From contig JACDOK010000012.1 in the NCBI GenBank assembly GCA_017656185.1, positions 1 to 63,006 on the forward strand: 63,006 bases of DNA. Direction: 5' to 3'. Position 1 is the stretch's first letter, and each line of letters opens with the position of its first letter. The position numbers and the translations under genes are program-made. This document shows, piece by piece, positions 34,815-45,231 of the stretch. The notes beneath the pieces are model-generated. The model was not told where the DNA came from, did no database searches, and saw only the letters and a program-made list of their open reading frames with translations. The DNA is from Peptococcaceae bacterium (GTDB lineage: Bacteria; Bacillota; Desulfotomaculia; Desulfotomaculales; JACDOK01).

Positions 34815-35501
34815 ATGAATATTAAAGTACTAACCTATAATATTCATCACGCGGAGGGTGTTGATAATGAGGTCGATTTGGGTCGTATCGCACACGTGCT
34901 TGCGGCATCGGCAGCCGAACTTATTGCTTTGCAAGAAGTAGACCGTTTTATGCCGCGTACCGGATTTGTTCCCCAGGCCAAAAGACTGGCCCAGAAACTC
35001 GGCAAAACATATGTTTTTGCACCCACGCTGCGGCTGGTATGCCTTCCCCTCTTTGGTAATGCGGTTATTAGTGCTTATCCCATTATTTCTTGGACCAACC
35101 ACCGGTTGCCCGGTACCGGTGAACCGCGCAGAATGTTGGAAACACGAATACTGATGCAGGGGGAAACAGTATGTTTCTGTAATACCCATTTGGGGCTTAA
35201 TGCCGTCGATAGAAAAGGGCAGGTGGCAGAAATCATCCGGATTGTCAGCGATATTAAAATTCCCCTGATCTTGTGTGGTGATTTCAACGCCTTACCCGAT
35301 GCCCCCGAAATCCGGGACCTGTTGATAGTACTTGATGATGCCTGTGTTATTAACGGTTATACTTTCCCGCCCCAGGAACCAACGGCACGGATTGATTATA
35401 TCTTTACATCTTCCCACTGGAAGGTACGCAAATGTTTTACGATTAATAGCCAGGCTTCTGACCACCTGCCTATCGTTGCACACTTGACGCTGGACCTTTA
35501 A
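34815..35501 (+). CDS. Endonuclease/exonuclease/phosphatase family protein
   Basis: A 228-residue metal-dependent phosphoesterase. Visible motifs are VLTYNIHH, the metal-binding glutamate in IALQEVDR, NTHLGL, the CGDFNALPD motif and the terminal SDHLPIVAHL. The family includes DNases, sphingomyelinase-like and inositol phosphatases; there is no signal peptide, so a cytoplasmic role is likely. The stop overlaps the convergent end of the sigK 3' part by 4 bp. Confidence 0.85.
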   Translation: MNIKVLTYNIHHAEGVDNEVDLGRIAHVLAASAAELIALQEVDRFMPRTGFVPQAKRLAQKLGKTYVFAPTLRLVCLPLFGNAVISAYPIISWTNHRLPGTGEPRRMLETRILMQGETVCFCNTHLGLNAVDRKGQVAEIIRIVSDIKIPLILCGDFNALPDAPEIRDLLIVLDDACVINGYTFPPQEPTARIDYIFTSSHWKVRKCFTINSQASDHLPIVAHLTLDL

Positions 35502-35881
35502 CCACGGGTGTACTGCGGTGAATTTTCAGTGGTTAGGTCCCTGGTCAGTTTTTGCAGGGCCCTTTTCTCAATCCGGGAAACATAGCTCCGAGAGATGCCC
35601 AAACTTTTCGCAATTTCTTGTTGTGTCTGGCGGATTCCGTTTGCCAGACCGAAGCGCAGGGCAATCACCTTTTTCTCACGCCGGGATAAGTTCTTCATTT
35701 TATCGCGCAGCTTATTGTACTGTAAAATACCTTCCACTTTTTCTTCAACAATTTCCGGATCGGTACCCAGAACGTCGATAAGCGTAATTTCATTGCCCTC
35801 TTTATCCACGCCGATGGGGTCTTGCAGGGATACTTCCGACTTAGTTTTTTTCATGGCTCGTAGGTGCATTAAAATCTCGTT
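35498..35881 (-). CDS. sigK: sigK 3' part (sigma-K regions 3-4), detached from its start
   Basis: Encodes the C-terminal half of the mother-cell sporulation sigma factor. Read in frame from the att core, it gives EILMHLRAMKK, the region-3 segment VSLQDPIGVDKEGNE, and the region-4.2 helix-turn-helix TQQEIAKSLGISRSYVSRIEKRAL. It has no ribosome binding site of its own. Its missing N-terminal half lies 9 kb away (44833-45176), separated by the mobile element. Joining the two at the 5-bp core restores codons N-E-I-L-M without loss. The same gene is split in this way (spoIIIC/spoIVCB) in Bacillus subtilis. Confidence 0.93.
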   Translation of the reverse strand, partial: NEILMHLRAMKKTKSEVSLQDPIGVDKEGNEITLIDVLGTDPEIVEEKVEGILQYNKLRDKMKNLSRREKKVIALRFGLANGIRQTQQEIAKSLGISRSYVSRIEKRALQKLTRDLTTENSPQYTRG

Positions 35882-37421
35882 GGTAATGACAAGAGATAAA
35901 ATCGGGGGATACCCGGGCGTATATCACGGCATTACATTTGTTTTCAATGACGATTTTTTCAATCAAACGCCTCACCAGCAGTTGCCGGCGTGGAAAAGGC
36001 AGATTATCAAGTTGTGCCAGGTAGGAAAATGCCATCTTTTCCGGGCGCATATTAGGAGCTGATGAAGTGATTTTTGACAAGCGGCTTTTTTCATTCTCCA
36101 AAGCGATAATCCTGGCCGTAATCTGTTTCAGCTGCATAGGAAATTGGGACTCGGGCATTTCCCCGTATTCCAATAAATGATAAAGAATGCGGCGGGCCGC
36201 TTGTAACCTCGCCAACTGACTATTAATGTTCTGCAGCTGAACCTCGTAATCGCTCGTGTGTCTAAGGGTATCAGCAATAATGGTTGCAAACGCTGCCGGG
36301 TCGTCGAGCCAGGTCTTAACCTGGTCCCAAACGATTTTTTCTAAGTGTTCGGCTTTGATACGCAGGCCGCATTTCTTGCCGCTGCTGGCTGTTTGACGGC
36401 AGTAATAGTAGGCGTAGGACCGGTTTTTCTTAGTGGTTTGATGACCGTAAAGCTTTCCGCCGCAGTACCCGCACTGGAGCAGGCCGCTTAAAAGATATTG
36501 CCGCTTGTGATATCCTTGTTGTAACCGGCGGATTTGGGACATGCGGGCTTGGGCTTTTTCCCACTGCGTGTATGATATGATGGGTGGTACGGGGACGGGA
36601 ATCCATTCTTCCCGAGCTCGCAGCGAGGGTTTAACTTTTTCCGACGGCGGTTTGTATTTATTAAGACCAACGTCCTTGCACCGGTAACGGTTAACGAAGA
36701 ATGTACCGGTGTAAACCGGGTTGGAGAGGATTTGCTTTATGACCATGCGGTGCCAGGGACCGCGACCTTTTTTAGTAGGAATACCGCGCTTGTTCAAGTG
36801 CCTGGCAATAGCACTGAAACCCCAGAGAAGATCGGTAAAAAGGTGAAAAATATACCTGACTACGCGAGCTTCCGGTTCATTAATAACTAACGCCGCCTCA
36901 GCATGGTCATAATCGTAACCGTAAGGACGGTGGGCGTGAGGCAGTTTGCCGGCTTTGGCTTTTTGAAGCCGCCCGTACATAGTGCGCTCTCGGATTTTTT
37001 CCTTCTCATATTGGGCCACTGCTCCGCGAATAGCGTAAAAAAGCTGGCCTTCCGGAGTGTTCTTCCATTCAAAGTTGACAAATTCAAGACGGATGTTTTT
37101 TCTTTCGATTTCTTCGGTGACAAGCAGTTGGTGGACAATATTGCGGGCAAAGCGGTCAGGATCAAGGACTACGACCATTTGAATGGCCCCTTGTTTAACA
37201 GCTTTGCGCAGGGCGGAAAGACCGGGGCGGGACAACACCGCTCCACTGACGCCCTGGTCCGTAAAGATAAGGCTGCTGGTGGCTCCGAGGCGTTCGGCGT
37301 GCCGGCGGCATTGATCGATTTGGTAGTCGATGCTGTAACCTTTGCGGGCCTGTTCCTCAGATGAAACGCGTGCATAAATTCCGGCTGTCAGGCCGGTTTT
37401 TCGGGTTTCATGGACGCTCAT
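35841..37421 (-). CDS. Large serine recombinase, SpoIVCA-like (copy 1)
   Basis: Site-specific recombinase expected to excise the element and restore sigK in the mother cell. The 526-residue protein has the resolvase domain with the nucleophilic serine in YARVSSEEQ, the DPDRFARN and YEKEKIRERT segments, a recombinase domain (about residues 165-280), a zinc ribbon (CGYCGG, then CRQ and CG) and a C-terminal coiled coil. Its 3' end crosses the att core, and the last 11 residues are read from sigK DNA in another phase. In copy 2 the tail differs. ATG 37421 overlaps the 62-residue gene by 4 bp (ATGA). Confidence 0.93.
   Translation of the reverse strand: MSVHETRKTGLTAGIYARVSSEEQARKGYSIDYQIDQCRRHAERLGATSSLIFTDQGVSGAVLSRPGLSALRKAVKQGAIQMVVVLDPDRFARNIVHQLLVTEEIERKNIRLEFVNFEWKNTPEGQLFYAIRGAVAQYEKEKIRERTMYGRLQKAKAGKLPHAHRPYGYDYDHAEAALVINEPEARVVRYIFHLFTDLLWGFSAIARHLNKRGIPTKKGRGPWHRMVIKQILSNPVYTGTFFVNRYRCKDVGLNKYKPPSEKVKPSLRAREEWIPVPVPPIISYTQWEKAQARMSQIRRLQQGYHKRQYLLSGLLQCGYCGGKLYGHQTTKKNRSYAYYYCRQTASSGKKCGLRIKAEHLEKIVWDQVKTWLDDPAAFATIIADTLRHTSDYEVQLQNINSQLARLQAARRILYHLLEYGEMPESQFPMQLKQITARIIALENEKSRLSKITSSAPNMRPEKMAFSYLAQLDNLPFPRRQLLVRRLIEKIVIENKCNAVIYARVSPDFISCHYQRDFNAPTSHEKN
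35877..35881. other. att core at the sigK 3' junction
   Basis: TCGTT (AACGA on the coding strand) is shared by this junction, the internal junction (40355) and the other outer junction (44833). To the left lies sigK 3' sequence (ATTTTAATG on the coding strand). To the right lies element sequence (ATTACC before the core). The crossover may be anywhere in the 5 bp, since the product is identical. Confidence 0.88.
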
Positions 37422-37606
37422 TCTCTTTTGTGCTCCGGAATGGTTTTAAAATTATTGTCAATTTGCGTAGCCCATTCGACCATTAATTTAAAGCATATTT
37501 CCTTTTCGGCGCGGGCCCGCTCCTTATCACAGACAGGTACGATCCGTACAGTAATATTGTTTGCGCACGGTTTGTCACTCGTAGAATCACCCCCCCTTTG
37601 CAACAT
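37418..37606 (-). CDS. Small gene upstream of the recombinase (copy 1)
   Basis: Up to 62 residues, ending on the ATGA overlap with the recombinase start, so the two are translationally coupled. The core TVRIVPVCDKERARAEK, followed by a helical segment, looks like a folded small protein. The ATG at 37606 lies upstream of the AAAGGGGGGG stretch, so the actual start may be further in, possibly a non-ATG codon. The function is unknown. A recombination directionality or accessory factor is one possibility, by position only. Confidence 0.5.
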   Translation of the reverse strand: MLQRGGDSTSDKPCANNITVRIVPVCDKERARAEKEICFKLMVEWATQIDNNFKTIPEHKRE

Positions 37607-37835
37607 TATGTGTATGAAGAAGGAAAAATGGTGTTATATGTTGTCTTGATGCCCATGTCATGGTAATAACGGTCAAAAAATTTTTCTCTTACAATTATCA
37701 ATTAGGAGGAATTTTCAAATAAAACACGAATAATATGTCGGACAAATAGAATTGTTTGCAGTCCGTTCTAAGTACCACACACTACCAAGGGATTTATTTA
37801 ATCCTTAATAAAAATTTTTACAAAGGGGTGGTTTG

Positions 37836-39335
37836 GTGGAAGCTCAAGGTCGCGAACAATGGGGAACAAGAGTAGGCTTCATCTTGGCCGCTGTGGGCTC
37901 AGCCATCGGGCTGGGTAACATCTGGCGGTTCCCGTACATGGCCTACGAGAATGGTGGTGGTGCTTTTTTAATTCCATACTTTTTCGCGCTGCTGACGGCC
38001 GGTATTGCGATTATGATTTTGGAATTTGGTATCGGCCACAAATACCGGGGTGCTGCTCCGGCAACGTTTGCTGCTATTAACAAAAACTGGGAATGGCTTG
38101 GTTGGCTGCAAACCCTCGTGGCGTTTTGCATTTCGGTCTATTACGTTGTAATTATCGGTTGGGCTATTTCATATTTCTACATGTCATTTGGGCAGGGATG
38201 GGGCGACGACCCCAAAGGATTTTTCTTTGAAAATTTCCTGCACCTTACTGAGGGTCCTTTCCAATTGGGATGTCTCGTGTGGCCTATCCTCGGCGCTACG
38301 CTTATTGCGTGGCTGATTAACTGGATAGTTCTTTACAGCGGCGTCCGGCGTGGCATTGAGGTCGCGAACAAGATCTTTATGCCCATCCTTTTTGTGCTGG
38401 TACTGGTTATGCTGGTGCGTGGTGTGACGCTTCCCGGTGCTGCGGAAGGCCTGAATTGGTTGTTCCGTCCCGATTTCAGCGCTATTTGGGATTATAGGGT
38501 ATGGGCCGATGCCTACGGTCAGATCTTCTTCAGCTTGAGCATCGCTTTTGCTATCATGATTACTTATTCCAGTTATCTGCCTAAGAAATCCGATATTGTC
38601 AACAATGCTTTTATGACGTCCCTCATTAACTGCGGTTTTAGTATGCTGGCAGGCATCGCTGTTTTCAGCATCCTGGGCTACATGGCGGCTGAGCAGGGAA
38701 AGGCCATTCAGGATGTTGCCGGTGCCGGTGTCGGTTTGGCCTTTGTGACTTTCCCGCAGGCCATTAACCTGCTTCCCGCTGCATCGTTCTTTGGAGCGCT
38801 GTTCTTCTTGTCGCTGACTTTTGCAGGGTTGTCTTCAGAAATATCAATCAACGAGGCTGTTATTTCCGCTTTGATGGATAAGTACGGTTGGAGCCGCAAG
38901 GTTGTCGCCACCTGGTTCTGTATCGTTGGTTTTGTTATCAGCCTGTTCTTTGTAACCGGCGGCGGTCTGTATCTGCTGGATATCGTTGACCATTTCATTA
39001 ACAACTTCGGTATTGTTTTCGGAGGTCTGATTGAGGTCATACTCCTAAGCTGGTTCTTTAACTTAGAAAGCGTCAGAAAGCACATCAATGCTGTTTCTGA
39101 TTTTGCCGCCGGAGCCTGGTGGAAGTTCTGCCTGCAGGCCGTTACCCCGATTGTACTAGGCTACATGGCTATTGCCAACCTTATCGGCGATATTAGGGAA
39201 CCCTATAGCGGGTATCCAGTAGGTGCCCTGATAGCCTTCGGTTGGGTTGTTGTTGTGGGTGTCGTAGTTGCTGCCTTTATTCTTCAGGCATCGAAGGGTA
39301 AAGGTCGTATGCTGGACAGCTCGAGCAATCTCTAA
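37836..39335 (+). CDS. NSS-family sodium-dependent transporter, MetP-like (copy 1)
   Basis: Sodium-coupled symporter of the neurotransmitter:sodium symporter fold (LeuT type), about 499 residues with 12 predicted helices. The sodium- and substrate-binding helix 1 is intact (VGSAIGLGNIWRFPYM), as are helix 6 (FFSLSIAFAIMITYSSY) and helix 8 (LTFAGLSSEISINEAV). A MetS-like small subunit gene follows, as in methionine/alanine importers, so neutral amino acid uptake is likely. GTG 37836 has AAAGGGG at normal spacing. Such cargo is unexpected inside a sigK intervening element. A terminator follows the small subunit. Confidence 0.9.
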   Translation: MEAQGREQWGTRVGFILAAVGSAIGLGNIWRFPYMAYENGGGAFLIPYFFALLTAGIAIMILEFGIGHKYRGAAPATFAAINKNWEWLGWLQTLVAFCISVYYVVIIGWAISYFYMSFGQGWGDDPKGFFFENFLHLTEGPFQLGCLVWPILGATLIAWLINWIVLYSGVRRGIEVANKIFMPILFVLVLVMLVRGVTLPGAAEGLNWLFRPDFSAIWDYRVWADAYGQIFFSLSIAFAIMITYSSYLPKKSDIVNNAFMTSLINCGFSMLAGIAVFSILGYMAAEQGKAIQDVAGAGVGLAFVTFPQAINLLPAASFFGALFFLSLTFAGLSSEISINEAVISALMDKYGWSRKVVATWFCIVGFVISLFFVTGGGLYLLDIVDHFINNFGIVFGGLIEVILLSWFFNLESVRKHINAVSDFAAGAWWKFCLQAVTPIVLGYMAIANLIGDIREPYSGYPVGALIAFGWVVVVGVVVAAFILQASKGKGRMLDSSSNL

Positions 39336-39351
39336 TAAAGGGGGTAACAAA

Positions 39352-39453
39352 ATGTCGGCTGGCGCAGTGATAATGATGATCTTCGGACTTGCAGTTACCT
39401 GGGGCGGGGCAGCCATCTGCATAAACCTTGCGATGAAAAAGAGAGGGATATAG
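39352..39453 (+). CDS. MetS-like NSS transporter small subunit (copy 1)
   Basis: A 33-residue single-helix protein: SAGAVIMMIFGLAVTWGGAA, then a basic end KKRGI. This pattern matches the small subunit that partners bacterial NSS transporters (methionine and alanine importer, small subunit). The start has GGGGG 8 bp before it, and the gene is 16 bp after the transporter. It is too short for usual gene finders. Confidence 0.85.
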   Translation: MSAGAVIMMIFGLAVTWGGAAICINLAMKKRGI

Positions 39454-39479
39454 CCCGAAATTTTAGATCTTACTTTACT

Positions 39480-39502
39480 ACCCCGGTCGTAATGACCGGG
39501 GT
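39480..39502 (+). terminator. Intrinsic terminator after the NSS-MetS unit (copy 1)
   Basis: ACCCCGGTC (39480-39488) and GACCGGGGT (39494-39502) form a 9-bp stem with a 5-nt loop, followed by ATTTTGTG. It ends transcription within the element. Confidence 0.8.
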
Positions 39503-39583
39503 ATTTTGTGTTATAAACGTAGTTATAAACGTACGGTCCCGGCCATATAATAGTTAGAACCTTTTATCAAAGGAGCCGGGATC

Positions 39584-39700
39584 ATGCGTGTCTTATATTT
39601 TCAAGGGACCGTTAAGGAGTTTCGGAAGTGGCTTATAAAGTGGCGGCACCTTGGCTCAATGCCTGCCCGGTACTTGGCGTACAGCAAATACCGTCAGTGA
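39584..39700 (+). CDS. 38-residue small protein (copy 1)
   Basis: ATG 39584 is preceded by AAAGGAG at 7-bp spacing. The product MRVLYFQGTVKEFRKWLIKW and its basic C-terminus form an amphipathic, positively charged helix. It has a full start, ribosome site and stop, but I do not recognise a family. It could be a DNA-binding accessory factor or a small regulatory protein; neither is shown. Confidence 0.45.
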   Translation: MRVLYFQGTVKEFRKWLIKWRHLGSMPARYLAYSKYRQ

Positions 39701-39716
39701 ACGTGCATTTGGCGCA

Positions 39717-39851
39717 CTATTCTTGGGTTTTGACCGTTTCCTGTTTTTGCAAGGTACGCTTTTCCGCCATCCGGTGTTTGAATTCCTCTACTTCAAGCCT
39801 GCCCGGGCTGCTGTTATTGAGCTTTACGTCTTCTTTGCTTTGTTTTACCAA
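39717..39851 (-). CDS. 44-residue charged small protein (copy 1)
   Basis: TTG 39851 is preceded by a strong AGAGGAGG at 7-bp spacing and lies 26 bp after the ferredoxin/zinc-ribbon stop. The product is rich in Lys, Glu and Gln (LEVEEFKHRMAEKRTLQKQE) and is predicted helical. No family is recognised. The good ribosome site argues for real translation, in an operon with the ferredoxin gene. Confidence 0.4.
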   Translation of the reverse strand: MVKQSKEDVKLNNSSPGRLEVEEFKHRMAEKRTLQKQETVKTQE

Positions 39852-39877
39852 GGGGGATACCTCCTCTGTTACGGTAT

Positions 39878-40263
39878 TTATTCTCCATGAATGAGGGCAG
39901 GAAGACACTTTACATATACCCATGTGCTGTTGCCTTTGCGGCGAACCGGCAGCAGGGCACGGTTTTTGTCGGAGGCACCGCAAGAGTAGCAGGTAATGGC
40001 ATCGGCAGCAGTATTCTTATTTCTTTGGCGGAGGTGTTCCTTACGGCTTCTTCGGAAAACTCCGGGGCTTCTCGTTCTTTAATACTCAGTGCTCCGGTAG
40101 GGCATACTGGAATGCAGAAACCCGCCCCGTCGCAAAGTTCTTCACGTATGACCCTGGCTTTACCGTCCTGCAGTTCGATGGCCCCTTTGGCACAGGGGCC
40201 GATGCACTTCCCGCATCCATTGCAAAGTTCTTCGTTGATGCGGACGATTTTTCTTTTAACCAC
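39878..40263 (-). CDS. Ferredoxin with C-terminal zinc-ribbon, apparently frameshifted (copy 1)
   Basis: The N-terminal 75 residues hold two [4Fe-4S] sites (CNGCGKCIGPC and CDGAGFCIPVCP). In this frame the sequence then continues as an unrelated tail. One frame back (-1) the DNA encodes CYSCGASDKN, then VKCLPALIHGE and a stop at 39878, a recognisable zinc-ribbon end. The switch lies near 40037-40046, where one added base would join the frames smoothly (EEAV to KEHL). It may be a genuine mutation, a programmed shift or a sequencing error; it is the same in both copies. GTG 40263 has AGAGG upstream and a TACAAT box at 40301-40306. Confidence 0.65.
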
Positions 40264-40333
40264 GTTTTATCAGCCTCTTATGTTTTAGGATTCATAAATT
40301 ATTGTACCCTAAAAACAGTGGTTTTACATAAGT

Positions 40334-41899
40334 TTAACCGCTGTAAGCACAAAGTCGTTGGTAATGACAAGAGATAAAATCGGGGGATACCCGGGCGTAT
40401 ATCACGGCATTACATTTGTTTTCAATGACGATTTTTTCAATCAAACGCCTCACCAGCAGTTGCCGGCGTGGAAAAGGCAGATTATCAAGTTGTGCCAGGT
40501 AGGAAAATGCCATCTTTTCCGGGCGCATATTAGGAGCTGATGAAGTGATTTTTGACAAGCGGCTTTTTTCATTCTCCAAAGCGATAATCCTGGCCGTAAT
40601 CTGTTTCAGCTGCATAGGAAATTGGGACTCGGGCATTTCCCCGTATTCCAATAAATGATAAAGAATGCGGCGGGCCGCTTGTAACCTCGCCAACTGACTA
40701 TTAATGTTCTGCAGCTGAACCTCGTAATCGCTCGTGTGTCTAAGGGTATCAGCAATAATGGTTGCAAACGCTGCCGGGTCGTCGAGCCAGGTCTTAACCT
40801 GGTCCCAAACGATTTTTTCTAAGTGTTCGGCTTTGATACGCAGGCCGCATTTCTTGCCGCTGCTGGCTGTTTGACGGCAGTAATAGTAGGCGTAGGACCG
40901 GTTTTTCTTAGTGGTTTGATGACCGTAAAGCTTTCCGCCGCAGTACCCGCACTGGAGCAGGCCGCTTAAAAGATATTGCCGCTTGTGATATCCTTGTTGT
41001 AACCGGCGGATTTGGGACATGCGGGCTTGGGCTTTTTCCCACTGCGTGTATGATATGATGGGTGGTACGGGGACGGGAATCCATTCTTCCCGAGCTCGCA
41101 GCGAGGGTTTAACTTTTTCCGACGGCGGTTTGTATTTATTAAGACCAACGTCCTTGCACCGGTAACGGTTAACGAAGAATGTACCGGTGTAAACCGGGTT
41201 GGAGAGGATTTGCTTTATGACCATGCGGTGCCAGGGACCGCGACCTTTTTTAGTAGGAATACCGCGCTTGTTCAAGTGCCTGGCAATAGCACTGAAACCC
41301 CAGAGAAGATCGGTAAAAAGGTGAAAAATATACCTGACTACGCGAGCTTCCGGTTCATTAATAACTAACGCCGCCTCAGCATGGTCATAATCGTAACCGT
41401 AAGGACGGTGGGCGTGAGGCAGTTTGCCGGCTTTGGCTTTTTGAAGCCGCCCGTACATAGTGCGCTCTCGGATTTTTTCCTTCTCATATTGGGCCACTGC
41501 TCCGCGAATAGCGTAAAAAAGCTGGCCTTCCGGAGTGTTCTTCCATTCAAAGTTGACAAATTCAAGACGGATGTTTTTTCTTTCGATTTCTTCGGTGACA
41601 AGCAGTTGGTGGACAATATTGCGGGCAAAGCGGTCAGGATCAAGGACTACGACCATTTGAATGGCCCCTTGTTTAACAGCTTTGCGCAGGGCGGAAAGAC
41701 CGGGGCGGGACAACACCGCTCCACTGACGCCCTGGTCCGTAAAGATAAGGCTGCTGGTGGCTCCGAGGCGTTCGGCGTGCCGGCGGCATTGATCGATTTG
41801 GTAGTCGATGCTGTAACCTTTGCGGGCCTGTTCCTCAGATGAAACGCGTGCATAAATTCCGGCTGTCAGGCCGGTTTTTCGGGTTTCATGGACGCTCAT
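40334..41899 (-). CDS. Large serine recombinase, SpoIVCA-like (copy 2)
   Basis: Same protein as copy 1 up to the att core, 521 residues in total. Beyond the core the last six residues are LCAYSG, read from element DNA of the neighbouring copy. This is the tail the recombinase would also have in the free circle. The catalytic serine, zinc-ribbon cysteines and coiled coil are intact, so both copies could be active. Confidence 0.93.
   Translation of the reverse strand: MSVHETRKTGLTAGIYARVSSEEQARKGYSIDYQIDQCRRHAERLGATSSLIFTDQGVSGAVLSRPGLSALRKAVKQGAIQMVVVLDPDRFARNIVHQLLVTEEIERKNIRLEFVNFEWKNTPEGQLFYAIRGAVAQYEKEKIRERTMYGRLQKAKAGKLPHAHRPYGYDYDHAEAALVINEPEARVVRYIFHLFTDLLWGFSAIARHLNKRGIPTKKGRGPWHRMVIKQILSNPVYTGTFFVNRYRCKDVGLNKYKPPSEKVKPSLRAREEWIPVPVPPIISYTQWEKAQARMSQIRRLQQGYHKRQYLLSGLLQCGYCGGKLYGHQTTKKNRSYAYYYCRQTASSGKKCGLRIKAEHLEKIVWDQVKTWLDDPAAFATIIADTLRHTSDYEVQLQNINSQLARLQAARRILYHLLEYGEMPESQFPMQLKQITARIIALENEKSRLSKITSSAPNMRPEKMAFSYLAQLDNLPFPRRQLLVRRLIEKIVIENKCNAVIYARVSPDFISCHYQRLCAYSG
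40355..40359. other. Internal junction core, attP-like
   Basis: At the seam between the copies the core TCGTT is flanked on both sides by element sequence only (coding strand ATTACC before, CTTTGTGC after). This is the sequence expected at the closed junction of an excised circle, that is attP. No sigK sequence remains here. Confidence 0.85.
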
Positions 41900-42084
41900 T
41901 CTCTTTTGTGCTCCGGAATGGTTTTAAAATTATTGTCAATTTGCGTAGCCCATTCGACCATTAATTTAAAGCATATTTCCTTTTCGGCGCGGGCCCGCTC
42001 CTTATCACAGACAGGTACGATCCGTACAGTAATATTGTTTGCGCACGGTTTGTCACTCGTAGAATCACCCCCCCTTTGCAACAT
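41896..42084 (-). CDS. Small gene upstream of the recombinase (copy 2)
   Basis: Identical to the 62-residue frame of copy 1, with the same ATGA overlap with the recombinase. The N-terminus is uncertain for the same reason: the purine-rich AAAGGGGGGG lies inside the frame. Confidence 0.5.
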   Translation of the reverse strand: MLQRGGDSTSDKPCANNITVRIVPVCDKERARAEKEICFKLMVEWATQIDNNFKTIPEHKRE

Positions 42085-42313
42085 TATGTGTATGAAGAAG
42101 GAAAAATGGTGTTATATGTTGTCTTGATGCCCATGTCATGGTAATAACGGTCAAAAAATTTTTCTCTTACAATTATCAATTAGGAGGAATTTTCAAATAA
42201 AACACGAATAATATGTCGGACAAATAGAATTGTTTGCAGTCCGTTCTAAGTACCACACACTACCAAGGGATTTATTTAATCCTTAATAAAAATTTTTACA
42301 AAGGGGTGGTTTG

Positions 42314-43813
42314 GTGGAAGCTCAAGGTCGCGAACAATGGGGAACAAGAGTAGGCTTCATCTTGGCCGCTGTGGGCTCAGCCATCGGGCTGGGTAACATC
42401 TGGCGGTTCCCGTACATGGCCTACGAGAATGGTGGTGGTGCTTTTTTAATTCCATACTTTTTCGCGCTGCTGACGGCCGGTATTGCGATTATGATTTTGG
42501 AATTTGGTATCGGCCACAAATACCGGGGTGCTGCTCCGGCAACGTTTGCTGCTATTAACAAAAACTGGGAATGGCTTGGTTGGCTGCAAACCCTCGTGGC
42601 GTTTTGCATTTCGGTCTATTACGTTGTAATTATCGGTTGGGCTATTTCATATTTCTACATGTCATTTGGGCAGGGATGGGGCGACGACCCCAAAGGATTT
42701 TTCTTTGAAAATTTCCTGCACCTTACTGAGGGTCCTTTCCAATTGGGATGTCTCGTGTGGCCTATCCTCGGCGCTACGCTTATTGCGTGGCTGATTAACT
42801 GGATAGTTCTTTACAGCGGCGTCCGGCGTGGCATTGAGGTCGCGAACAAGATCTTTATGCCCATCCTTTTTGTGCTGGTACTGGTTATGCTGGTGCGTGG
42901 TGTGACGCTTCCCGGTGCTGCGGAAGGCCTGAATTGGTTGTTCCGTCCCGATTTCAGCGCTATTTGGGATTATAGGGTATGGGCCGATGCCTACGGTCAG
43001 ATCTTCTTCAGCTTGAGCATCGCTTTTGCTATCATGATTACTTATTCCAGTTATCTGCCTAAGAAATCCGATATTGTCAACAATGCTTTTATGACGTCCC
43101 TCATTAACTGCGGTTTTAGTATGCTGGCAGGCATCGCTGTTTTCAGCATCCTGGGCTACATGGCGGCTGAGCAGGGAAAGGCCATTCAGGATGTTGCCGG
43201 TGCCGGTGTCGGTTTGGCCTTTGTGACTTTCCCGCAGGCCATTAACCTGCTTCCCGCTGCATCGTTCTTTGGAGCGCTGTTCTTCTTGTCGCTGACTTTT
43301 GCAGGGTTGTCTTCAGAAATATCAATCAACGAGGCTGTTATTTCCGCTTTGATGGATAAGTACGGTTGGAGCCGCAAGGTTGTCGCCACCTGGTTCTGTA
43401 TCGTTGGTTTTGTTATCAGCCTGTTCTTTGTAACCGGCGGCGGTCTGTATCTGCTGGATATCGTTGACCATTTCATTAACAACTTCGGTATTGTTTTCGG
43501 AGGTCTGATTGAGGTCATACTCCTAAGCTGGTTCTTTAACTTAGAAAGCGTCAGAAAGCACATCAATGCTGTTTCTGATTTTGCCGCCGGAGCCTGGTGG
43601 AAGTTCTGCCTGCAGGCCGTTACCCCGATTGTACTAGGCTACATGGCTATTGCCAACCTTATCGGCGATATTAGGGAACCCTATAGCGGGTATCCAGTAG
43701 GTGCCCTGATAGCCTTCGGTTGGGTTGTTGTTGTGGGTGTCGTAGTTGCTGCCTTTATTCTTCAGGCATCGAAGGGTAAAGGTCGTATGCTGGACAGCTC
43801 GAGCAATCTCTAA
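42314..43813 (+). CDS. NSS-family sodium-dependent transporter, MetP-like (copy 2)
   Basis: Identical in translation to copy 1, with an intact helix 1 motif (GSAIGLGNIWRFPY) and small subunit following. The genome segment therefore carries two equal doses of the transporter while the dimer is integrated. Both would be lost from the mother-cell chromosome on excision, though not from the spore. Confidence 0.9.
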   Translation: MEAQGREQWGTRVGFILAAVGSAIGLGNIWRFPYMAYENGGGAFLIPYFFALLTAGIAIMILEFGIGHKYRGAAPATFAAINKNWEWLGWLQTLVAFCISVYYVVIIGWAISYFYMSFGQGWGDDPKGFFFENFLHLTEGPFQLGCLVWPILGATLIAWLINWIVLYSGVRRGIEVANKIFMPILFVLVLVMLVRGVTLPGAAEGLNWLFRPDFSAIWDYRVWADAYGQIFFSLSIAFAIMITYSSYLPKKSDIVNNAFMTSLINCGFSMLAGIAVFSILGYMAAEQGKAIQDVAGAGVGLAFVTFPQAINLLPAASFFGALFFLSLTFAGLSSEISINEAVISALMDKYGWSRKVVATWFCIVGFVISLFFVTGGGLYLLDIVDHFINNFGIVFGGLIEVILLSWFFNLESVRKHINAVSDFAAGAWWKFCLQAVTPIVLGYMAIANLIGDIREPYSGYPVGALIAFGWVVVVGVVVAAFILQASKGKGRMLDSSSNL

Positions 43814-43829
43814 TAAAGGGGGTAACAAA

Positions 43830-43931
43830 ATGTCGGCTGGCGCAGTGATAATGATGATCTTCGGACTTGCAGTTACCTGGGGCGGGGCAGCCATCTGCAT
43901 AAACCTTGCGATGAAAAAGAGAGGGATATAG
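43830..43931 (+). CDS. MetS-like NSS transporter small subunit (copy 2)
   Basis: Same 33-residue single-helix protein as in copy 1, 16 bp after the transporter and with the same GGGGG ribosome site. Confidence 0.85.
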   Translation: MSAGAVIMMIFGLAVTWGGAAICINLAMKKRGI

Positions 43932-43957
43932 CCCGAAATTTTAGATCTTACTTTACT

Positions 43958-43980
43958 ACCCCGGTCGTAATGACCGGGGT
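43958..43980 (+). terminator. Intrinsic terminator after the NSS-MetS unit (copy 2)
   Basis: Same 9-bp stem (ACCCCGGTC / GACCGGGGT) with trailing T-rich stretch as in copy 1. Confidence 0.8.
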
Positions 43981-44061
43981 ATTTTGTGTTATAAACGTAG
44001 TTATAAACGTACGGTCCCGGCCATATAATAGTTAGAACCTTTTATCAAAGGAGCCGGGATC

Positions 44062-44178
44062 ATGCGTGTCTTATATTTTCAAGGGACCGTTAAGGAGTTT
44101 CGGAAGTGGCTTATAAAGTGGCGGCACCTTGGCTCAATGCCTGCCCGGTACTTGGCGTACAGCAAATACCGTCAGTGA
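44062..44178 (+). CDS. 38-residue small protein (copy 2)
   Basis: Same reading frame, AAAGGAG ribosome site and basic amphipathic product as in copy 1. Not recognised as a known family. Confidence 0.45.
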   Translation: MRVLYFQGTVKEFRKWLIKWRHLGSMPARYLAYSKYRQ

Positions 44179-44194
44179 ACGTGCATTTGGCGCA

Positions 44195-44329
44195 CTATTC
44201 TTGGGTTTTGACCGTTTCCTGTTTTTGCAAGGTACGCTTTTCCGCCATCCGGTGTTTGAATTCCTCTACTTCAAGCCTGCCCGGGCTGCTGTTATTGAGC
44301 TTTACGTCTTCTTTGCTTTGTTTTACCAA
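44195..44329 (-). CDS. 44-residue charged small protein (copy 2)
   Basis: Same TTG start and AGAGGAGG ribosome site as copy 1; a Lys/Glu-rich helical product of unknown role, downstream of the ferredoxin gene. Confidence 0.4.
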   Translation of the reverse strand: MVKQSKEDVKLNNSSPGRLEVEEFKHRMAEKRTLQKQETVKTQE

Positions 44330-44355
44330 GGGGGATACCTCCTCTGTTACGGTAT

Positions 44356-44741
44356 TTATTCTCCATGAATGAGGGCAGGAAGACACTTTACATATACCCA
44401 TGTGCTGTTGCCTTTGCGGCGAACCGGCAGCAGGGCACGGTTTTTGTCGGAGGCACCGCAAGAGTAGCAGGTAATGGCATCGGCAGCAGTATTCTTATTT
44501 CTTTGGCGGAGGTGTTCCTTACGGCTTCTTCGGAAAACTCCGGGGCTTCTCGTTCTTTAATACTCAGTGCTCCGGTAGGGCATACTGGAATGCAGAAACC
44601 CGCCCCGTCGCAAAGTTCTTCACGTATGACCCTGGCTTTACCGTCCTGCAGTTCGATGGCCCCTTTGGCACAGGGGCCGATGCACTTCCCGCATCCATTG
44701 CAAAGTTCTTCGTTGATGCGGACGATTTTTCTTTTAACCAC
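44356..44741 (-). CDS. Ferredoxin with C-terminal zinc-ribbon, apparently frameshifted (copy 2)
   Basis: Carries the same two [4Fe-4S] motifs, and the same -1 switch near 44515-44524 before the CYSC and KCLPALIHG zinc-ribbon end. Because the defect is shared, it predates the duplication if it is real. Confidence 0.65.
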
Positions 44742-44801
44742 GTTTTATCAGCCTCTTATGTTTTAGGATTCATAAATTATTGTACCCTAAAAACAGTGGT
44801 T

Positions 44802-45176
44802 TTACATAAGTTTAACCGCTGTAAGCACAAAGTCGTTTTCGATGCACCGCGCCGCATAAGTTGCCAGGCGGGTTCCTTTCGTAGGGTTATAGGTCTTAAT
44901 GGCCTTAATTAAACCAATGGTACCGATGGAAATGAGATCGTCCAGGTCTTCTCCGGTATTGTCATATTTTTTTATTATGTGCGCGACAAGCCTTAAGTTA
45001 TGTTCGGTAAGAATGTGACAGGCTTCCTGGTTACCTTCCAGCATAAGATCTAGGTACTTTTTTTCTTCTTCGCGGGAAAGGGGTTGTGGAAAGGTATTGT
45101 TAGTGATGTAAGATAACAATAAAAGGATACCGTTAATTACAGAGACGACGCCGATACTAAGGATGGTCGGTAGCAT
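44802..45176 (-). CDS. sigK: sigK 5' part (pro-sequence and regions 1-2), truncated by the element
   Basis: Encodes the N-terminal 114 residues of pro-sigma-K plus 10 residues of element-encoded tail before a stop. It has the hydrophobic pro-peptide, the processing region [14 protein letters not shown] (serine-tyrosine pair at 22-23, equivalent to the SpoIVFB cut site) and region 2 ([13 protein letters not shown], then GTIGLIKAI and [11 protein letters not shown]). ATG 45176 has GGGGAGGTG at ideal spacing; the longer frame from 45224 starts before the likely promoter. Joined to the 3' part it gives about 240 residues, the normal pro-sigma-K length. Without excision only a non-functional fragment is made. 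Confidence 0.94.
44833..44837. other. att core at the sigK 5' junction
   Basis: TCGTT, third occurrence of the core, 4478 bp from the internal one. On the coding strand it follows CATCGAAAA (sigK codons C-I-E-N) and precedes element sequence CTTTGTGC. Confidence 0.88.
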
Positions 45177-45204
45177 AGGACACCTCCCCAAATCTATGCA
45201 TTTT

Positions 45205-45231
45205 ATTCTATGAAAGTTCGCCATAATGTGT
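45205..45231 (-). promoter_or_regulatory. Possible sigma-E-type promoter of sigK
   Basis: On the minus strand CATAGAAT (45205-45212) matches the sigma-E -10 CATACAAT closely. ACACATT (45225-45231) is a weaker -35 with 12-bp spacing, slightly short. Its position, about 20-30 bp before the sigK ribosome site, fits mother-cell control as known for sigK. It is an eye match and not proof. Confidence 0.35.

Follow-up and report, generated by a model that had tools for sequence, protein, structure and literature searches.

Two identical copies of a 4,478-bp element interrupt the sigK gene in the window analyzed here (the whole stretch of 63,006 nucleotides, contig JACDOK010000012.1 of a Peptococcaceae bacterium), and the seam between them has the sequence of the closed attP site of the element. 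We are confident that this locus represents a small element of the skin-like (sigK-intervening) type, which owes its insertion to the large serine recombinase that it encodes, and that the seam is its attP. This reading is based on the exact geometry of the junctions, on the sigK open reading frame that is regained when the element is deleted in silico, and on the catalytic, recombinase and zinc-ribbon domains of the element-encoded recombinase. It also draws on the recurrence of such recombinases near split sigK genes in the same bacterial class, on the precedent of the Clostridioides difficile skin element (PMC5025042) and on the contig ends in a related genome, G035, which lie where they would be expected if both integrated and excised states were present in that sample.

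Results

The seam between the element copies has the structure of an attP site

A self-BLAST comparison of the window returned a single repeat, in which positions 35877-40359 and 40355-44837 match over 4,483 bp with 100% identity and no gaps; the length of the repeat excludes a chance origin. It consists of two identical 4,478-bp units arranged head to tail, and a 5-bp core, TCGTT on the plus strand or AACGA on the sigK strand, is present at the left junction, at the seam and at the right junction (Table 1). The seam is identical to the left junction from the core at 35877 rightward and to the right junction up to 44837. Since the left and right junctions have only the 5 bp of the core in common at this point, the point of strand exchange lies within these 5 bp. 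At the seam, element DNA lies to the left and to the right of the core, and each side matches the corresponding arm of one outer junction, while each outer core is bordered by sigK on one side. The seam is thus the closed attP of the element, at which the ends of the excised circle are joined, a conclusion that is well supported. The preliminary description of this DNA had proposed an intact attP-like site at the seam and had taken the outer junctions, each with sigK on one side, for attL and attR; the junction comparison bears out both proposals.

The element lies inside the coding region of sigK, at the IENE codons. When the DNA between the outer cores was deleted in silico, an uninterrupted sigK open reading frame was obtained that continues in frame through IENEILMHL. 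The sole other sigK-like match in the host genome is a 48%-identical paralogue, probably sigE, and the split copy is therefore the only sigK that was detected in the assembled sequence. The host genome carries spoIVA, and by gene content the host is therefore a spore former.

Table 1. Coordinates of the element copies, att sites and genes at the sigK locus (positions in the window).
Feature	Position	Strand	Basis or remark
sigK 3′ part (C-terminal half; sigma-70 region 4)	35498..35881	-	domain match
Large serine recombinase, copy 1, 526 aa, ends RDFNAPTSHEKN	35841..37421	-	frame runs through attL into sigK DNA
attL core (sigK 3′ part / element)	35877..35881	.	junction comparison
Element copy 1, 4,478 bp	35877..40354	.	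100% identical to copy 2
62-aa ORF overlapping recombinase start, copy 1	37418..37606	-	weak positional candidate for directionality factor
Sodium-dependent NSS/SNF-family transporter, copy 1	37833..39335	+	Pfam SNF 2e-124
MetS-like NSS transporter small subunit, copy 1	39340..39453	+	NCBIfam MetS_like_NSS 4.5e-14
4Fe-4S dicluster ferredoxin-like protein, copy 1	39910..40263	-	Pfam Fer4_7; 72.5% identical relative in G073 sigK element
attP	40325..40390	.	same as attR on left, as attL on right; arm length assumed
Large serine recombinase, copy 2, 521 aa, ends RLCAYSG at seam	40334..41899	-	Pfam Resolvase, Recombinase, Zn_ribbon_recom
attP core TCGTT at seam	40355..40359	.	5 bp common to three junctions
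Element copy 2, 4,478 bp	40355..44832	.	identical to copy 1; may be assembly rendering of circle
62-aa ORF, copy 2	41896..42084	-	as in copy 1
Sodium-dependent NSS/SNF-family transporter, copy 2	42311..43813	+	identical copy
4Fe-4S dicluster ferredoxin-like protein, copy 2	44388..44741	-	identical copy
attR core (element / sigK 5′ part)	44833..44837	.	junction comparison
sigK 5′ part (N-terminal half; sigma-70 region 2)	44833..45224	-	domain match; residues 1-118 of rejoined sigK

Gene content of the element

In each unit there are genes for a large serine recombinase, an NSS/SNF transporter, a MetS-like small subunit (whose start codon in copy 1 is probably the ATG at 39352) and a 4Fe-4S ferredoxin-like protein, as well as a 62-aa ORF; no phage structural or replication genes were found among the genes of the element. 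The recombinase gene sits near one end of the element, beside the 3′ part of sigK. Its reading frame crosses the att core, and its last residues consequently differ between the integrated form (526 aa) and the closed form (521 aa). Elsewhere in the host genome, near a contig end, another stretch matches a serine recombinase in part (49% over 107 aa; G000:C60:4694-5014).

By its position, the 62-aa ORF is a lead, although a weak one, for a recombination directionality factor. An ORF of 50-70 aa is found just upstream of, or overlapping, the start of most of the recombinases of the class that were examined, both in sigK and elsewhere, and these recombinase-adjacent ORFs have a conserved pattern (V.VVY, GL..AYRLLAKKVLE). 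Those that were scanned, among them the 62-aa ORF, gave no Pfam or NCBIfam match. A model made from other recombinase-adjacent ORFs weakly found the ORF of locus L003 (E 0.029), and the same model gave no significant similarity to the 62-aa ORF of the window (E 8.4). Upstream of the 62-aa ORF a possible sigma-E promoter was noted by eye, for which no claim is made.

Related elements recur in sigK genes of the same class

The comparison set comprised 113 genomes of the same class. A strong relative of the recombinase was found in 38 of them. About two dozen genomes, those of the window and of G035 among them, have a recombinase close to a split sigK; in most genomes of the class sigK is uninterrupted. 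The comparison of related genomes that the preliminary description had called for thus turned up both monomeric relatives and uninterrupted sigK genes. Wherever both junctions were in hand, the break fell at the same ENE codons. The cores of the other elements, as read by eye, are mostly TGAAAT or longer, and since (C/T)GA is common to the cores, the central dinucleotide is probably GA.

The nearest element, that of G073, is present as a single copy of ca. 2.9 kb; its recombinase is 47% and its ferredoxin 72.5% identical to those of the window element, whereas the transporter is missing. More generally, the elements of G073 (ca. 2.9 kb), G030 and G029 (ca. 3.2 kb each) and G035 (ca. 4.9 kb) share with the window element the sigK site and a recombinase gene that is collinear with sigK and lies beside its 3′ part, but they differ from it in carrying other cargo, in being single-copy and in having recombinases at most 47% identical to that of the window. 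By sequence inspection, G035 encodes an acyl-CoA-synthetase-like protein, G030 and G029 each encode a cyclic-nucleotide-binding-domain-like protein, and locus L004 has a PEP-carboxykinase-like one. Small sigK elements with differing non-phage cargo, mostly metabolic-looking, were observed at loci L071, L072, L078, L084 and L004. In the recombinase tree, the window recombinase falls into a group with the recombinases of four further sigK elements (100/97, 99/94, 96/92), namely those of G073, G035 and two elements from other Bacillota. Two labels in this tree are in error (L077 wrongly marked as sigK, L028 wrongly left out), which invalidates the number of label changes counted on it; the clade of the window is unaffected. 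In some genomes (G026, G028, G030, G032 and G033) an intact sigK-like gene was seen alongside the split one.

At the G035 locus (contigs C11, C10 and C12; loci L072, L113 and L114), contigs end exactly between the sigK halves, i.e., between GAAAAC and GAAATT, and the element itself forms a separate contig of 4,902 bp, in which a check for circularity revealed no terminal overlap. Judging from these contig ends, the G035 sample may have contained a mixture of excised and integrated DNA.

Searches of viral contigs retrieved neither an exact match to the attP nor a match to the recombinase, and among phage and plasmid records the recombinase matched only distant serine recombinases (best ca. 39%). 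Among the papers searched, none dealt with an interrupted sigK in Desulfotomaculum. The skin kind of element is already known; the window adds to it a compact member free of phage genes and supplies the exact attP of one such element. Within this single class of spore formers, roughly one in five of the genomes sampled has such a skin-like element, and several of the elements differ in their small cargo.

Tandem dimer or integrated copy with excised circles

Exact overlaps of 53-55 bases were found at many of the host contig ends tested, and the 5′ end of the window overlaps contig C53 by exactly 55 bases. It follows from the 55-base overlaps that the genome was assembled from short reads by the de Bruijn method at k=55, and hence that a perfect repeat of 4,478 bp could not have been read through. 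One integrated copy and one circle would together yield precisely the set of 55-mers that the contig contains; this equality was also found at k = 127, 250 and 4,478. Since 49 seam 55-mers are missing from the monomer, the attP junction must, barring assembler error, have been present in the reads, and the attP sequence is probably read-supported. A site of this kind inside a short-read contig calls for caution, as it may mean either a dimer or excised circles, and whether the attP resided in a chromosomal dimer or in an excised circle is about an even question.

The contig as assembled reads attL-element-attP-element-attR, as the preliminary description had it; that part stands, whereas the further step to a physical dimer does not follow, since the k-mers at k=55 equally describe a monomer and a circle. 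A true chromosomal tandem dimer, arising by homologous recombination of a circle with an integrated copy or by integration of a dimeric circle, has in our estimate nearly an even chance. It agrees with the outer junctions, which are unbroken, and with the result of a search for attB, which was not found in host contigs of 3 kb or more at up to 3 mismatches: a dimer predicts attP without attB, while simple excision predicts the two in equal numbers. Against it stand the inability of an assembler at k=55 to cross the repeat, the k-mer equivalence at all values tested up to 4,478, the absence of tandem copies among the other sigK elements fetched, and the instability of perfect tandem repeats of ca. 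4.5 kb. The sequence does not separate the origins that had been proposed for a dimer (integration of a circle into or next to an occupied site, or homologous recombination).

The same k-mer set would result from one integrated copy accompanied by excised circles in the sampled population, drawn as a dimer because the assembly graph holds a loop; to this we give a probability just short of one half. Here the k=55 overlaps of the contig ends, the breaks of the sibling G035 contigs exactly at the att point and the lack of tandem copies at the other fetched loci are all in favor, and an attP-bearing circle is the known product of skin excision (PMC5025042). The continuity of the contig through both outer junctions argues the other way, as does the failure to find attB in contigs of 3 kb or more, where excision should have left it in numbers equal to attP. 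16S was likewise not found in host contigs of 3 kb or more, a weak sign of the assembly type.

Short-read assemblies can misjoin, and the seam might then be present in no molecule. We consider this very improbable: the point at which the seam brings the element ends together is exactly the 5-bp core of the outer junctions, an assembler working at k=55 would not be misled by an overlap as short as 5 bp, and a de Bruijn contig normally holds only k-mers taken from reads.

That the chromosome stably maintains a tandem dimer, with an intact attP kept inside the interrupted sigK, can be put forward only tentatively, at somewhat less than even probability. If so, the circle freed by excision would be of double length (8,956 bp) and would carry attP twice, and the control of sigK would have to handle three att sites.

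Proposed excision cycle and comparison with known systems

By analogy with known skin elements, the recombinase, presumably active in the mother cell during sporulation and assisted by a putative directionality factor, would recombine attL with attR. All DNA lying between the outer cores would thereby leave as a circle and sigK would be restored, allowing sigma-K to be made, while in vegetative cells the element would stay in place. Whether a dimer or a monomer is excised, all element DNA would leave and sigK would be restored.

In C. difficile the recombinase alone is sufficient for attP × attB recombination (PMC5025042), and by the same token the window recombinase alone would return an attP circle into a free attB, with a directionality factor required for attL × attR. 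The suggestion that the restored sigK site could be re-entered in cis or by the circle is therefore retained in one half: by analogy, a circle could in principle re-enter the site (PMC5025042), which in the mother cell would have no heritable effect. Re-entry in cis is not expected, since the occupied site contains no attB and the inner attP departs with the circle.

The Bacillus subtilis skin is a large defective prophage, whereas the window element is 4.5 kb long with metabolic-type cargo; the exact codon position of the B. subtilis insertion is probably equivalent to that of the window element. The B. subtilis recombinase is SpoIVCA. In both elements, sigK is interrupted and short 5-bp repeats mark the exchange site (PMC5025042). 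The C. difficile skin (CD1231 recombinase, CD1234 directionality factor) likewise interrupts sigK, carries its own large serine recombinase, is flanked by attL and attR, and yields an attP-bearing circle upon the precise excision that restores sigK (PMC5025042), a restoration seen in silico for the window element. It differs in being prophage-like, whereas the window element has neither phage genes nor a recognizable directionality factor. The gin element of Bacillus cereus ATCC10987 (PMC5595907) is, like the window element, a non-phage element, equipped with serine recombinase, that intervenes in a sporulation gene, but it is 28.6 kb long, resides in gerE and has three recombinases.
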